A stretch of DNA of 64,000 nt from positions 48,027-112,026 of the forward strand of contig JACRBJ010000009.1 in NCBI GenBank assembly GCA_016234555.1, in the 5' to 3' direction. The stretch comes from Chloroflexota bacterium (GTDB lineage: Bacteria; Chloroflexota; Anaerolineae; Anaerolineales; Villigracilaceae). The notes under the pieces were generated by a model. It was not told the DNA's origin. It was given only the letters and a program-made list of their open reading frames with translations, and made no database searches. The position numbers were made by a program, and so were the translations under genes. Every line of letters begins with the position of its first letter. Within the stretch, counting starts at the first letter, position 1. Positions 23,211 to 27,481 of the stretch are shown here, in pieces.

Positions 23211-25460
23211 TTAAATTTGTTCGGCGTTGTTCACCCATGAGATGTGGATGGTTGTGCCATGATCGGGCATGGACTTGATGTTGATCTCCGCGCCGAGCAG
23301 GTGGGCGCGCTCCACCATGCCCGCCAGCCCATAGTGGCGGCTGGCGATCAGGCTGTCGAGTTCGGTCTGCGGCTCGAAGCCTGTGCCGTCGTCTGTGATG
23401 GTCAAATCCAGTTTGCGGGAGGCGATCTCGCCGCTGATGACAATGTTCTTCGCGCGGGAATGGCGGAGTGAGTTTTCGCATGCCTCCTGCGCAATCCGGT
23501 AGAGATGTTGTTCCATATTTTGCGGAAGCCGCTCTTCGCCAGATTGGATATCCGCCTTGATCGTAACCTTGTCGCCGCTGCGCTCCATCAGGTTGTCGGC
23601 AAGCCCGTTAAGGGCGGGGACCAGCCCGTACATTAACATTGGCGGGCGCAGGTCGCTGACGATTTCGCGCAGGCGGCGGGCGACCTCCTCGTAGGAGGTT
23701 TGGAATTGCGGCGGCAGGCTGGCTTCCCCAACGCTGGCGCGCAGGATGGCGAGTTCGTTCAACACGCTGTCGTGCAGTTCCAGCGCCAGGCTCATGCGCT
23801 CCTGTTCATTGCGCTCGATGTCGGATTGATACATTTTCCGCACCTGTTCGGCATGCTCGATGTTGCTGAGGGCAATGGCGGTCTGGTTGGCGATGGATTG
23901 CAGGGTCGGGATTTCAGCCTGGGGATAATGGTCGTCCGGGTCGCGCTGTCCAAGAAGCCAAAAGCCGATGAAACGGTCGCCAACTTTGAGCGGCAGGATG
24001 AGACGAACCCAGTCGCAGTTGAGAATCTCGGGGAAAAATTTCCCCGCCTGGTCGATCAATTCATCCACCCCACATTTGTGCGAGAGTTGGTCTGCGTCGA
24101 CATTTTTTGCGAGCAGTATTTTCAGCTCTTTGTTGAGAACCCGCGCGAAAACATATTGACGCACAAGCAGGCTGGGGAATATTTCGTCTTCGAGCAACTG
24201 CAATAGGCTGGGCATCGACGTGCTGGTGGTGATGCGGCTGGAGTAGATTTCCTGCAAATTTTGGTAGGGAAGCTTGATGCCAAAGAAACGTTTTTCCATG
24301 AAGGTTTGAAAGACGGGGAAACCGGCAGTCCCGGCAATCGCTGCAAACAGCACAAGCATGGTACCGAAAAATATCCATGCTTCGGGATTAATGTTCAAGC
24401 TGGAAACGGGAACCACGATCAGAAACAGGGCTGTGCAGAGGAGAATCAGGAAGGCATACAGCGAAACAATGCGGTTGACGCGTACTTCCAACCCGCCCAG
24501 TCGACGGCGATAGATGACGTAAAAATAAGCCAGCGGCATGAATGGAAATGAAAAAAGCGCAATTGGCGCCACGTTTGGCATCGTCCCCGCCATGACCAGC
24601 AAACTCAACCCGGCGGGTGGAAGAAAAGCGACAAGCAGGGAAATGCCAAGCAGGAGCACATCGCGGCGCTGGTCTGCCTGTATGATCAAATGCGCTATTT
24701 CCAATACCAGGCTCCCTCCCAGCGCGAGTAAAAAGGGAATGGCGTATAGGTCGCGTGGCAGCGCCTGGGCGATCTCGGCGGCGGCAGGCAGGGCACACGC
24801 CGCGTACAGGAAAAACCATGCCGCTTTTGGAAGCTTCCTGAATGGGCGGGGGAATACCCAGTGCAGGTGCAGGTAAACGGGCAAAAGCAGCCAGGTGGAG
24901 GCACGCAACAGGATCGAACTCTCCCACAGATGCGTGCCTGAAAAACTCCCGAAGATAAACCAGAGGGAGGTCAGGTAATTGGCGGCAATGAACAGCATCC
25001 AGCGCTCATCCTTTGGTCGAATGGACAGGTGAACCACCGTGCCAAACAACCAAAAGACGTAAGCCGCCCCCCAGATGTTGAAAAAGCGCCCGCTGAATTC
25101 CTCCAATGTGAAGCCGGGAAACTCCCACTGAATTGTCTCTTCGACGCCGTTTCGGGTGACGACAATGTCTACAATTTCGCCCTTTTTGGCGTCTCCAAAG
25201 AAGGCTTGCCTGGAGTTCGTTTTATAGTCCAGCCAGCGGACGTTCCCAACCTGTTGCAGGATGTCGCCTGGGCGCAGGGTCGGCTCCCGCCGTGGGGTTC
25301 CAAAGATTGTCATAACCCGTCCGTCGGCTGTGCTGAAATCGAAGCCTGAATAGGGCGCCCCGAATAATATTCCGTAGGTGAAGAATGCCAGGACAACAAC
25401 CACCAGTATCGAAAGGAGCAATTCATTCGCTTGCCATTGGGGGAGGATGTGTTTGCGCAT
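23211..25460 (-). CDS. ComP-like sensor histidine kinase (PDZ-like loop, 10 TM, GAF, HisKA_3)
   Basis: The 749-aa order is: TM1 (residues 14-36); an external PDZ-like segment (LRPGDILQQVGNVRW near residue 77); nine more TM helices (about 128-370); a GAF-like region (about 400-530); a HisKA_3 domain with phospho-acceptor His about residue 563 in LELHDSVLNEL; and an HATPase (EACENSLRH N-box, DDGTGF, GLAGMVERAHLLGA). Size and layout agree with Bacillus ComP (about 770 aa, N-terminal PDZ-like segment and multiple TM). Divergent from the small peptide gene at 25613; the regulator at 26789 is its likely partner. Input ligand inferred, not shown. Confidence 0.85.
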   Translation of the reverse strand: MRKHILPQWQANELLLSILVVVVLAFFTYGILFGAPYSGFDFSTADGRVMTIFGTPRREPTLRPGDILQQVGNVRWLDYKTNSRQAFFGDAKKGEIVDIVVTRNGVEETIQWEFPGFTLEEFSGRFFNIWGAAYVFWLFGTVVHLSIRPKDERWMLFIAANYLTSLWFIFGSFSGTHLWESSILLRASTWLLLPVYLHLHWVFPRPFRKLPKAAWFFLYAACALPAAAEIAQALPRDLYAIPFLLALGGSLVLEIAHLIIQADQRRDVLLLGISLLVAFLPPAGLSLLVMAGTMPNVAPIALFSFPFMPLAYFYVIYRRRLGGLEVRVNRIVSLYAFLILLCTALFLIVVPVSSLNINPEAWIFFGTMLVLFAAIAGTAGFPVFQTFMEKRFFGIKLPYQNLQEIYSSRITTSTSMPSLLQLLEDEIFPSLLVRQYVFARVLNKELKILLAKNVDADQLSHKCGVDELIDQAGKFFPEILNCDWVRLILPLKVGDRFIGFWLLGQRDPDDHYPQAEIPTLQSIANQTAIALSNIEHAEQVRKMYQSDIERNEQERMSLALELHDSVLNELAILRASVGEASLPPQFQTSYEEVARRLREIVSDLRPPMLMYGLVPALNGLADNLMERSGDKVTIKADIQSGEERLPQNMEQHLYRIAQEACENSLRHSRAKNIVISGEIASRKLDLTITDDGTGFEPQTELDSLIASRHYGLAGMVERAHLLGAEINIKSMPDHGTTIHISWVNNAEQI

Positions 25461-25509
25461 GGTTTTCTCTAAGTTTATCCAGTTATCAATAATGAAAGGT
25501 GGTGATTTG

Positions 25510-25537
25510 ATTATAGCGTAGTGTCAAAACTTTTCAA
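25510..25537 (-). promoter_or_regulatory. Promoter of the comP-like kinase
   Basis: On the minus strand TTGAAA (25537-25532), 16 nt, TATAAT (25515-25510), about 43 nt before the kinase start. No equally clear promoter is seen on the plus strand for the divergent peptide gene. Confidence 0.6.
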
Positions 25538-25612
25538 TACATTTTCCGTTTTTGCCAAAGCTTTTCATAAGCCGGCAGTTTTTCCCAAAACCCAATTCAG
25601 GAGTTACTTTCG

Positions 25613-25786
25613 ATGAAACACATGCAGGATTTTCGTGAATGGTTGTCCGCGGTGAATGCGGAAGCCAGCCCGCTCCAGCGTCACCTGGCGGCATTGACCC
25701 GCCTTGACCGCGCCCGCCTTTGGTCCATTTCGAGCGGGTTGACCTGGTTCCAATGGGGCGCTCCACAGCCTGTGGGCGAATCGTAG
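25613..25786 (+). CDS. ComX-like pheromone precursor (57 aa)
   Basis: A 57-aa ORF with AGGAG 8 nt before the ATG. The N-terminal two thirds are polar and helical (MQDFREWLSAVNAEASPLQ). The C-terminus SGLTWFQWGAPQPVGES holds Trp45 and Trp48. ComX precursors are 50-70 aa, unrelated in sequence, and are prenylated on a Trp near the C-terminus (for example ending RQWGD). It lies 71 nt before the ComQ-like prenyltransferase and divergent from the ComP-like kinase. Identity as a prenylated signal is inferred from size, Trp position and neighbours. Alternative: an unrelated small protein. Confidence 0.6.
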   Translation: MKHMQDFREWLSAVNAEASPLQRHLAALTRLDRARLWSISSGLTWFQWGAPQPVGES

Positions 25787-25798
25787 CAGGAGGATGAC

Positions 25799-25837
25799 TC
25801 AACGTCCCGAAGGCCGCTCAAACCTTCGGGACGTTGA
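25799..25837. repeat. CGTCCCGAAGG palindrome between comX-like and comQ-like genes
   Basis: TCAACGTCCCGAAGG (25799-25813) and CCTTCGGGACGTTGA (25823-25837) make a perfect 15-bp stem with 9-nt loop. The arms match 17546-17602, so it is a dispersed repeat, but in the message it could stabilise the peptide mRNA or reduce read-through into the prenyltransferase. No T tract follows. Confidence 0.85.
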
Positions 25838-25857
25838 GCGAAATGAAAGAGGTGTTC

Positions 25858-26829
25858 ATGGATATTTACACGCGGACCTTCGACGAATTTTCAAATATCC
25901 CCGTGATCGATGCGTGGGCTGAGGTGCGGGACTTGTTTCAGCGGGTTGCATCTGGAAGACCGAGGCATTGGCTGTTGCCTCTGCGCGCTTGCGAGGCTGT
26001 CGGTGGGAGCGAGGAGCAATCCCTGCCGGCTTTGGTCGCCGTGGCTTGCAGTCACATTGGGATCGTGTTGGTGGATGATATGCTGGATGCCGACCCACGC
26101 GGCGAACATCTGCGGGTTGGCGCTCCCTCAGCCGCAAACATGGCTTCCGCCTTGCAATCTGCCGCGCTTGCTTCCATTGCCCACTGTGACCTGCCTTCCG
26201 AGTCGAAACTGATTGCGCTGGAAAGTGTCAACGAAATGTTTCTTTCCACCACCCTGGGGCAATATTGGGATATTCAGCCTGTGAAGGATGAAGAGGGATA
26301 TTGGCGCGTTGCCCGGACAAAAAGTTCGCCCTTCTTCGGTGCGGCTTTACAGATCGGCACATTGATGGGCGGCGCCTCTGCCGGGTTGGCTGGTCAAATT
26401 AAAAGACTGGGTGGTTTATACGGGGAAATGATCCAAATCCACGACGACCTGAACGACACGATGGAAGTCCCCGCCAACCCTGATTGGGTGGGACGCTCGC
26501 CGCTGCCCATCCTGTTTGCCAGGCTGGTGGAGCATCCGCTGCGCGACCGTTTTGTGGAGCTTTGTCCGAATGCCGGGATCAACCCCGGGGCTTTGGAGGA
26601 GGCGCAGGAAATCCTGATCCAATGCGGGGCGGTCAGCTATTGCGTCTACCAGTTATTGAGCAGGCATCGAGCCGCAACGGAAACTCTATCCGCCCTGCCG
26701 CTTGCGCGCAGAGAATCCCTGACATCCCTGTTCGAAGATGTGGTCATGCCCGTCCGCAAGCTTTTCGAGGCGGTCGGCGAGGCGCCTGCTAATTTGTCTG
26801 CTTTTGAAATGATGGCTGAAGCGGGGTGA
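25858..26829 (+). CDS. ComQ-like isoprenyl transferase
   Basis: The 323-aa protein has the trans-prenyltransferase fold: first Asp-rich motif DDMLD (residues 73-77), GQYWDIQ, KSSPFF, and second Asp-rich motif DDLND (196-200). The N-terminal isopentenyl-diphosphate motif (normally GGKRLRP..ACEA) reads GRPRHWLLPLRACEA, with the Lys-Arg lost. That fits ComQ, which transfers farnesyl or geranyl to a Trp of ComX instead of extending a chain. ATG 25858 is chosen for AGAGGTG just upstream. Its 3' end overlaps the convergent regulator by 41 nt. Alternative: a divergent polyprenyl synthase of another pathway. Confidence 0.75.
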   Translation: MDIYTRTFDEFSNIPVIDAWAEVRDLFQRVASGRPRHWLLPLRACEAVGGSEEQSLPALVAVACSHIGIVLVDDMLDADPRGEHLRVGAPSAANMASALQSAALASIAHCDLPSESKLIALESVNEMFLSTTLGQYWDIQPVKDEEGYWRVARTKSSPFFGAALQIGTLMGGASAGLAGQIKRLGGLYGEMIQIHDDLNDTMEVPANPDWVGRSPLPILFARLVEHPLRDRFVELCPNAGINPGALEEAQEILIQCGAVSYCVYQLLSRHRAATETLSALPLARRESLTSLFEDVVMPVRKLFEAVGEAPANLSAFEMMAEAG

Positions 26830-27481
26830 TCAAACCCAACTGCTGCGCCTTGGCAATGGCGGCGGCGCGGTTGCTGACGTTCAACTTCATGTAGGCGGCG
26901 GAAAGCAGGTTGCGGACGGTGGAGTTGCTGACCGACATCCGATTCGCCAGTTCAGCTGTTGAGTAATTCGGGTAAGCCCCGGATAACGACAGAGCCTCCA
27001 ATTGGCGCGTGGTCAACAGCATGTTTTCCTTTGAGAGGTGGGTGCTGTAGATTTCATACGCCTTCTGGCTGAAGTGAATCCCGCCCGCGGCAACGGAGAG
27101 GACCACGCTGGCAAGGTCCCGCGCCGTGGTCTGGTCGTCCTTTAGGATATATCCGCTTGCCCCGGCTTCCATCACCGCGCGGATCAAGCCGCGTTCGGCA
27201 TACATGCTGATGACAAGGATGCTCAGCTTGCCGTAAATTTGCAGCAGCCTGGGGATGGCGTGCAGGATCGGGTATGGGTTTGGGTTGTCCGCCGAGGCGG
27301 GGACGTTCACGTCGAGCAGCAAAACGTCGGTGGGATGCTCCGCGAGCGCGGGTTCCAGTTCCTCGCCAAAATTGATTGTCGCTGCAATCTCGATCTGCGG
27401 ATTCGCCGTCAAACGAAAAACATAACCATCGATGATGTTTTGATGGTCGTCAAGGATTGTGACTCGTATTTTTTGGGTCAT
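26789..27481 (-). CDS. NarL/ComA-type response regulator
   Basis: The receiver domain (residues 1-125) has acidic Asp11-Asp12, phospho-acceptor Asp57 in LLLDVNVPA, Ser in LVISMYAE and Lys in GYILKDD. The C-terminal LuxR-type HTH runs from about residue 155 (LTTRQLEALSLSG, TAELANRMSVSNSTVRNLLS). The 230-aa length is usual. HisKA_3 kinases pair with this regulator class, and the nearest such kinase is the ComP-like gene at 23211. Target genes unknown. Convergent with and overlapping the prenyltransferase, so their 3' mRNA ends can pair. Confidence 0.9.
   Translation of the reverse strand: MTQKIRVTILDDHQNIIDGYVFRLTANPQIEIAATINFGEELEPALAEHPTDVLLLDVNVPASADNPNPYPILHAIPRLLQIYGKLSILVISMYAERGLIRAVMEAGASGYILKDDQTTARDLASVVLSVAAGGIHFSQKAYEIYSTHLSKENMLLTTRQLEALSLSGAYPNYSTAELANRMSVSNSTVRNLLSAAYMKLNVSNRAAAIAKAQQLGLITPLQPSFQKQTN

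Follow-up and report, generated by a model that had tools for sequence, protein, structure and literature searches.

We analysed a stretch of 64,000 nucleotides from a Chloroflexota bacterium (Anaerolineales, Villigracilaceae; assembly GCA_016234555.1, contig JACRBJ010000009.1, positions 48,027 to 112,026 of the forward strand), which we call the window, and describe in it four neighbouring genes that resemble the ComQXPA quorum-sensing system of Firmicutes: a membrane histidine kinase (P), a small peptide gene (X), a protein related to trans-isoprenyl diphosphate synthases (trans-IDS; Q) and a response regulator (A) (Table 1). All four open reading frames (ORFs) lie where an earlier note on this sequence had placed them, and their strand layout, in which P and A run against X and Q, is unlike the co-directional Bacillus operon, as that note had said. 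For Q, the ATG at 25858 is the best start; a TTG upstream, at 25834, falls within a hairpin. The C-terminal sequence of X reads ...GLTWFQWGAPQPVGES. The Q and A genes overlap tail to tail on opposite strands by 41 nt (26789-26829), and antisense interference from this overlap is possible. The assembly (5.8 Mb, 99.4% complete, 7.7% contaminated) holds three further strong PF00348 canonical synthases besides Q.

Table 1. Features of the locus; positions refer to the window unless another locus is named (aa, amino acids; TM, transmembrane; HTH, helix-turn-helix; FARM and SARM, first and second aspartate-rich motifs; IPP, isopentenyl diphosphate).
Feature	Position	Strand	Description
P, ComP-like membrane histidine kinase, predicted receptor	23211..25460	-	749 aa; TM1, PDZ-like loop, further TM helices, GAF, HisKA_3, HATPase_c
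X, precursor peptide, candidate prenylated pheromone	25613..25786	+	57 aa; W-x-x-W (W45, W48) near C-terminus
Q, trans-IDS-like, predicted peptide-tryptophan prenyltransferase	25858..26829	+	323 aa; FARM DDMLD and SARM DDLND kept, IPP-binding motif lost
A, NarL/ComA-like response regulator	26789..27481	-	230 aa; receiver and LuxR-type HTH
Stem-loop between X and Q	25798..25838	+	perfect 16-bp stem
23-nt element AAAGGTGGTGATTTGATTATAGC upstream of X	25495..25517	+	form in relatives: AAAGGAGGTGGTTCGATTATAGC
R, N-terminal HTH and ~7 predicted TM helices	21904..23097	-	directly 3' of P, co-directional; accessory gene in part of family
Distant loci of genome G059	L050 8708-8974; L051 1647-1949; L052 5680-5979	-; -; +	peptide ends ...EDLPWQSPQF..., ...KDAPWW

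Q matches the Pfam family polyprenyl_synt (3.8e-15). In a phylogenetic tree, Q and 24 relatives form one clade (25 rows, support 99/97), the ComQ proteins another (11 rows, 100/100), and 13 of the 15 canonical rows, together with two of the six rows called distant, a third (100/97). A place of Q among the canonical synthases, an outcome that the earlier note had named as speaking against its reading, was not found. As the tree is unrooted, its branching does not settle which two of the three clades are sisters. Approximately unbiased (AU) tests of joint clades (p 0.078 for Q with ComQ, 6e-5 for Q with the canonical clade, 0.0055 for ComQ with the canonical clade) were set aside: L053 and L115, nested among the canonical proteins, had been left outside the groups, and such tests are unable to show sisterhood because there are three groups without a root.

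The earlier note had described the isopentenyl motif of Q as eroded and both aspartate-rich motifs as kept, and an alignment of 25 Q, 14 ComQ and 13 canonical proteins agrees. The K-R-x-R of the IPP site, invariant in the 13 canonical proteins, is replaced in ComQ and, save for scattered K or R, in Q, and the position next to the site is Trp in all 25 Q proteins. DDxxDxD is found in 24 of the 25 Q and in all 14 ComQ proteins, with Ser there in 12 of the 13 canonical ones, and the KT of canonical synthases reads KS in 23 of the 25 Q and in all 14 ComQ. Two residues after the first motif are deleted in every Q protein (25/25) and in 13-14 of the 14 ComQ, and five residues after the second motif in all Q (25) and all ComQ (14); because these two deletions are common to both, kinship of Q with ComQ is favoured. 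Q has also lost two features of canonical synthases, the RRG behind FARM and the loop that follows SARM. With a PF00348 domain, a FARM that is kept and an IPP site that is lost, Q has the features of a ComQ-type protein, whereas it lacks the IPP-binding GKxxR of canonical synthases and is placed apart from them. By these comparisons Q is a distinct clade in which the isopentenyl site has been lost while DDxxD is intact. A role as a housekeeping synthase was rejected, given its own clade, the lost site and the three strong canonical synthases elsewhere in the genome.

The AlphaFold2 (AF2) model of Q is confident (92.4), and Q keeps the synthase fold; the best fold matches among the prenyl synthases found are geranylgeranyl diphosphate (GGPP) synthases, with Ord1 at rank 16 (TM-score 0.69-0.71). 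By single sequence, Ord1 (PDB 9v4g) is the second-best PDB match to Q (E 6.5e-8), and with the Q family profile it ranks 19th, behind canonical synthases. A profile comparison of Q with ComQ alone gave a probability of 99.3 and an E-value of 9.4e-21. The NCBIfam model closest to Q is that of a prenyl transferase cargo of family 2 encapsulins (E 5.1e-17), at a score far under its cut-off (62 vs 450 bits). A search for ComQ in phages gave no match.

The 57-aa ORF with a Trp near its C-terminus that the earlier note had reported carries nine residues after W48. In size and Trp position it resembles ComX (~52-73 aa, Trp at most ~10 residues from the C-terminus; PMC4008528). Candidates for X in related loci were required to contain Trp within the last 30 residues, and the start was the ATG that fitted the relatives, so that the ATG itself is no evidence. 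A Shine-Dalgarno sequence precedes the chosen ATG in 47 of 50 candidates. Nonsynonymous divergence (dN) is lower than synonymous divergence (dS) in 15/15 pairs, with dS close to saturation in several; X is under purifying selection and behaves as a gene. A W-x-x-W within the last 25 residues is found in 45 of the 50 candidates, compared with 57 of 3048 controls (ORFs of 40-75 aa). When L088 and L101 are included, the motif is present in 47 of 52 peptides; 39 different residue pairs stand between the two Trp, three of the 52 have a single Trp, and all 52 carry Phe within the first 14 residues. The relatives measure 41-69 aa, with the second Trp 0-16 residues from the end.

A strict rule for X (ATG, 38-75 aa, Shine-Dalgarno, position, W-x-x-W) was fixed after the candidates had been seen and was left unchanged when controls were scored. 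It identified a peptide at 43 of 49 Q loci, at 0 of 15 canonical synthase loci and, within the same loci, at 0 of 557 other ORFs that measure 200 aa or more. Selection, motif frequency and these controls led us to reject X as a chance ORF; judged by its relatives, it is a gene that evolves with a W-x-x-W end. In Pfam, X has no match at E<=1, and neither Pfam nor hhalign makes it a ComX family peptide (PF05952). PF05952 itself was set aside as uninformative, because the B. subtilis control was also without a match over the cut-off.

The earlier note's HisKA_3-type kinase of 749 aa has the right length and matches HATPase_c (2e-9) and HisKA_3 (6.6e-4, under the Pfam cut-off); HisKA_3 is matched at E<=0.05 in 12 of 14 P orthologues. 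Instead of the ten TM helices of that note, a crude hydropathy scan gave nine in the window's P and 8-10 in four relatives. As to the PDZ-like loop, the AF2 model shows a beta-rich loop of PDZ-compatible order at moderate confidence (mean predicted local distance difference test 74.5, predicted TM-score 0.49), and PDZ_2 is matched at E<=0.05 in 3 of 14 type I kinases, but the window's P is not among these, and Foldseek of the whole of P returned kinase-domain matches with no PDZ among the best 50. For ComP, the first loop has been described as PDZ-like and ten TM helices have been reported (PMC9620489). The regulator is of NarL type as predicted (Response_reg 1.7e-8, GerE 1.1e-6).

As references we used annotated Firmicutes comQXPA loci from plasmid records (NZ_CP015439.1, NZ_CP085444.1), with profile E-values for P and A computed for ten sequences. 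The P profile aligns with Anoxybacillus ComP in a single stretch (positions 13-742 of 748, E 7.6e-46) and with Priestia ComP in two stretches, and the A profile reaches the two ComA proteins at 2e-22 and 9e-19, respectively. The sensor part of P alone matched the two ComP at 2e-13 and 1.8e-7 with HMMER filters off and a large composition bias (best decoy ORF of the window, 0.012); with HMMER default filters it gave no ComP match. P has, in its predicted domains, the layout of ComP (multi-TM sensor, HisKA_3, HATPase_c), and A is, like ComA, a neighbouring receiver with a LuxR-type HTH. On the Anoxybacillus plasmid pDSM15939_1 (L132), the ComQXPA locus is flanked by a lantibiotic-type cluster on one side and an skfA/skfB cluster on the other.

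A search for Q in 61 genomes, the window's own included, gave matches at E<=0.001 in 57, mostly canonical synthases at ~30% identity; strong matches (E<=1e-35) were found in 15 and a remnant in one further genome (G031). Scanning named genome contigs yielded at least 54 loci, at least 52 of them at E<=6e-23; of these, at least 49 are titled as Chloroflexota lineages and at least three as Acidobacteriota (L090, L097 and L105, the last on a 1.2-Mb contig). A protein search found 1127 relatives among 8000 scored candidates, and the names among the 120 relatives listed are geranylgeranyl pyrophosphate/diphosphate synthase, polyprenyl synthetase, class 1 isoprenoid biosynthesis enzyme and hypothetical. 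In the phylum as a whole the Q family is rare: 7 of 400 genomes reach E<=1e-25, on up to five scored candidates each.

We counted 59 non-redundant loci, leaving out nine duplicates of genome loci, the distant loci L050-L053, L114 and L115, and L124, which was found later; in 49 of the 59, Q is intact, as a single ORF of 260 aa or more. Of the loci later counted with the P, A and Q profiles, 11, 11 and 13, respectively, had gone into building these profiles; for the locus of same-genus relatives, homology was also seen by direct tblastn with the window's proteins. This survey, of the kind that the earlier note had called for, placed a small ORF X just upstream of Q in 47 of the 49 intact loci and a P-type receptor adjacent in 47 of the 49, so that a transferase generally kept without small ORF or kinase, the second outcome that the note had held to be damaging, did not occur. 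A P-type receptor is missing at L080 and at L089, a contig edge. The window's arrangement recurs in 32 of the 49 loci; in 15 the receptor lies on the Q strand, with a separate A solely in L086. As judged from this synteny, X, Q and the sensor module are co-inherited. L095, counted apart for its second Q-like ORF nearby, has X and Q and no P-type receptor. P and A are kept at L049, L111 and L113, where Q is a mere remnant and no X was found, and at L047 X stands beside a broken Q. The survey went beyond what had been predicted, revealing the motif of two Trp, receptors with exchanged outputs and genomes that have the receptor only. Genome G059 carries more distant Q proteins near kinases and small ORFs with Trp close to the end, perhaps a further, PalX-like branch.

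The exchange of outputs was seen when the 15 same-strand receptors were scanned with Pfam: ten carry HisKA kinases, three of them with a receiver (L045, L105, L107), three carry HD-GYP (L041, L046, L092), one carries HisKA_3 (L086), and L090 is cut by a contig end. The HD-GYP domains of L046 and L092 read HDMGK...HHEKWDGxGYP; these two are sisters in the P tree, with L041 apart in an open fork. Homology of the same-strand receptors to the type I profile breaks off at about position 540, ahead of the output domain, so that the sensor remains with X-Q as outputs are exchanged. That it does so is the best indirect evidence that the sensor reads the X-Q product. Where HD-GYP replaces the kinase, a direct link from peptide signal to cyclic di-GMP (c-di-GMP) is possible.

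Sensors also occur without X and Q. Strong sensor matches (E<=1e-60) were found in 24 of the 61 genomes, namely 14 of 15 Q-positive vs 10 of 46 Q-negative ones (Fisher 1.0e-6, genomes counted irrespective of kinship), and none of 11 further sensor loci has X or Q at E<=1e-3. In L164-L168 and L174, A and P share a strand, their open frames 57-245 nt apart; P is broken in L169 and L173, L168 and L170-L172 extend to contig ends, and L174 is a second sensor copy in a Q-positive genome. The receptor of L173 (7228-7638) is reduced to 136 aa that join the first ~100 and last ~28 profile positions, beside an intact A; it is in decay in a locus without X-Q. In a quick P tree, with support from the Shimodaira-Hasegawa-like approximate likelihood ratio test (SH-aLRT) only, loci with and without X-Q are interspersed, and well-supported branches force at least seven changes. 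Since Q remnants persist in three loci, repeated loss of X-Q is the simplest reading of this scatter, though repeated gain may be an alternative. Genomes that lack X-Q but retain P and A would be listeners without a signal.

In 44 of 47 loci the interval between X and Q contains a stem of 9 bp or more, G-U pairs counted, and these stems are unrelated in sequence; compared with shuffles that preserve base composition only, z is <=-3 in 32 and <=-2 in 37 of the 47. The 23-nt element, which includes a long, strong anti-Shine-Dalgarno complement, precedes X by 78-119 nt in 15 of 50 loci; L074 has a variant of it. As the element occurs once in each of 5 of 37 genomes, always before X, it was rejected as a regulon box; it could be a leader mini-ORF or a translational element. 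R follows P in 16 of 33 X-Q-bearing loci vs 0 of 9 without X-Q (p 0.008, loci counted irrespective of kinship). An ABC transporter ATPase family is found near 9 of 42 loci. A defence system was rejected, PADLOC giving no match.

The X-Q-P synteny, the separate clade of Q, the sensor layout of P and the selection on X support the ComQXPA-type reading of the earlier note, and we consider it likely that the locus is ComQXPA-like, with Q prenylating Trp of X, P sensing the exported product and A switching genes. A role in quorum sensing is what we infer from anatomy, synteny and selection. Q would transfer a prenyl group to one or both Trp of X; X would then be cut, exported and bound by the PDZ/TM sensor of P, which would phosphorylate A and through it switch genes, while the stem-loop may keep the level of X above that of Q. 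In sister loci, this sensor module carries HisKA kinases, hybrid kinases or HD-GYP as its output.

Several points weigh against this reading. Its support is comparative. The second Asp motif begins with D in 25/25 Q vs N in 14/14 ComQ proteins, and the Gln three residues before it, which has been credited with indole recognition (PMC13290415), does not discriminate, because it is invariant in canonical synthases as well as in Q and ComQ. No homology of X to ComX is detectable: hhalign, with three ComX sequences only, gives a probability of 0.1%. P and A lie opposite to X-Q, with X upstream of Q, in place of a one-strand Q-X-P-A order. At L097 and L105, Q and receptor are present and X was looked for and not found. 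The eleven kinases on which the P profile was trained, that of L048 among them, match it by construction, and G058, the genome that holds L048, gave no sensor in the search with the sensor part alone. Neighbour clustering brought out no exporter or processing protease conserved across the loci. That the locus would work like ComQXPA is nonetheless well supported by the comparisons, whereas calling it ComQXPA is not well supported, because gene order and peptide family differ and Q may or may not descend from the ComQ clade. Since X lacks ComX homology and a clade of Q together with ComQ is neither shown nor excluded, common descent as a unit is not shown.

X might instead be a Trp-prenylated, ribosomally synthesized and post-translationally modified peptide (RiPP) that is chiefly antimicrobial, with P-A as a self-sensing or immunity circuit and R as the immunity protein. 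PalX/PalQ of Paenibacillus, a Trp-prenylated RiPP whose cluster includes a kinase gene (PMC10853753), offers a precedent, and the membrane protein R is tied to X-Q-bearing loci (16/33 vs 0/9). On the other hand, in the neighbour clustering neither a transporter nor a protease family is generally near the loci (the ABC transporter ATPase reaching 9/42), and the loss of X-Q with P and A kept suits a receptor that is useful by itself. We regard a chiefly antimicrobial X as improbable, although antimicrobial and signalling roles of X are compatible with each other.

A different possibility is that P responds to a free prenyl diphosphate or terpenoid synthesized by Q, X being an unrelated small regulator or a subunit of Q. 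Both Asp-rich motifs and the synthase fold are kept, GGPP synthases are the best fold matches, and databases name Q a GGPP synthase; but the IPP-binding K-R-x-R is lost across the Q family, with Trp next to the site in 25/25, the genome already has three strong canonical synthases, and W-x-x-W is kept at 43 of 49 loci while the surrounding X residues vary, which makes this account very unlikely. Least credible to us is a private sensor, in which the X product would act on P inside the producer or its membrane rather than between cells: no exporter was found in neighbour clustering and a crude scan finds no hydrophobic segment in X, but ComX likewise has no known exporter (PMC4008528), and receptor-only genomes make less sense for a private signal.

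Beyond the ComQXPA-like reading of this locus, one may tentatively, and with considerable doubt, imagine a modular prenyl-peptide communication in Anaerolineae, with W-x-x-W pheromones (perhaps twice prenylated or bridged), one sensor for kinases, hybrid kinases or HD-GYP (the last giving single-protein c-di-GMP control), and listen-only species arising recurrently via X-Q loss. Prenyl-peptide signalling in Chloroflexota, if true, would be a second, diversified radiation, in a widespread and mostly uncultured phylum, and Anaerolineae would gain a defined peptide language. A large set of 'GGPP synthases' would be re-annotated as Trp prenyltransferases, and the loci would give a view of how pheromone receptors exchange outputs as well as natural replicates for signal loss with the receptor kept.

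A 2014 census reports ComQXPA-like loci with 'none outside the phylum Firmicutes' (PMC4008528), and a KEGG-based survey lists for Chloroflexi the ComP-ComA pair only (PMC8895600). Our full-text literature search, within its scope of papers outside subscription, found no paper on prenyl-peptide signalling in Chloroflexota. Q shares fold, FARM and SARM with the canonical trans-prenyl diphosphate synthases (PF00348), but forms a separate clade without their IPP site, RRG and loop. Trp prenyltransferases of the same fold are PalQ, the P domain of ChrPC and Ord1 (PMC10853753, PMC13290415). Ord1 resembles Q as a fold match; unlike the predicted activity of Q, it farnesylates free tryptophan and not a peptide (PMC13290415). 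The PalP-PalX-PalQ genes of Paenibacillus alvei also bring together a kinase gene, a precursor peptide and a trans-IDS-like Trp prenyltransferase, and PalQ, likened here by description rather than by sequence alignment with Q, keeps the second Asp pair as Q does, which tempers the difference from ComQ (PMC10853753). However, PalX has a nitrile hydratase-like leader peptide (NHLP) and a single C-terminal Trp (PMC10853753), and PalQ tolerates no C-terminal extension (PMC13290415), whereas X has a short leader, no Pfam match, nine residues after W48 and, among its relatives, a second Trp 0-16 residues from the end. Compared with ComQXPA, X is not homologous to ComX and carries two Trp as W-x-x-W, the second Asp motif of Q starts with D where that of ComQ starts with N, and a GAF domain before the kinase, the X-Q stem-loop and the outputs exchanged in sister loci are features of the loci described here. 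Some of the variation has parallels in the census, where ComX is variable, ComP mostly has ten TM helices and comX is reversed at some loci (PMC4008528). The likeness to ComQXPA lies in the same four neighbours, namely a trans-IDS-like Q, a small Trp peptide, a multi-TM HisKA_3 kinase and a NarL-type regulator; in Q and ComQ that both lack the IPP site and have DDxxDxD and the two deletions; and in a P that is collinear with ComP, with the peptide as the most variable part.

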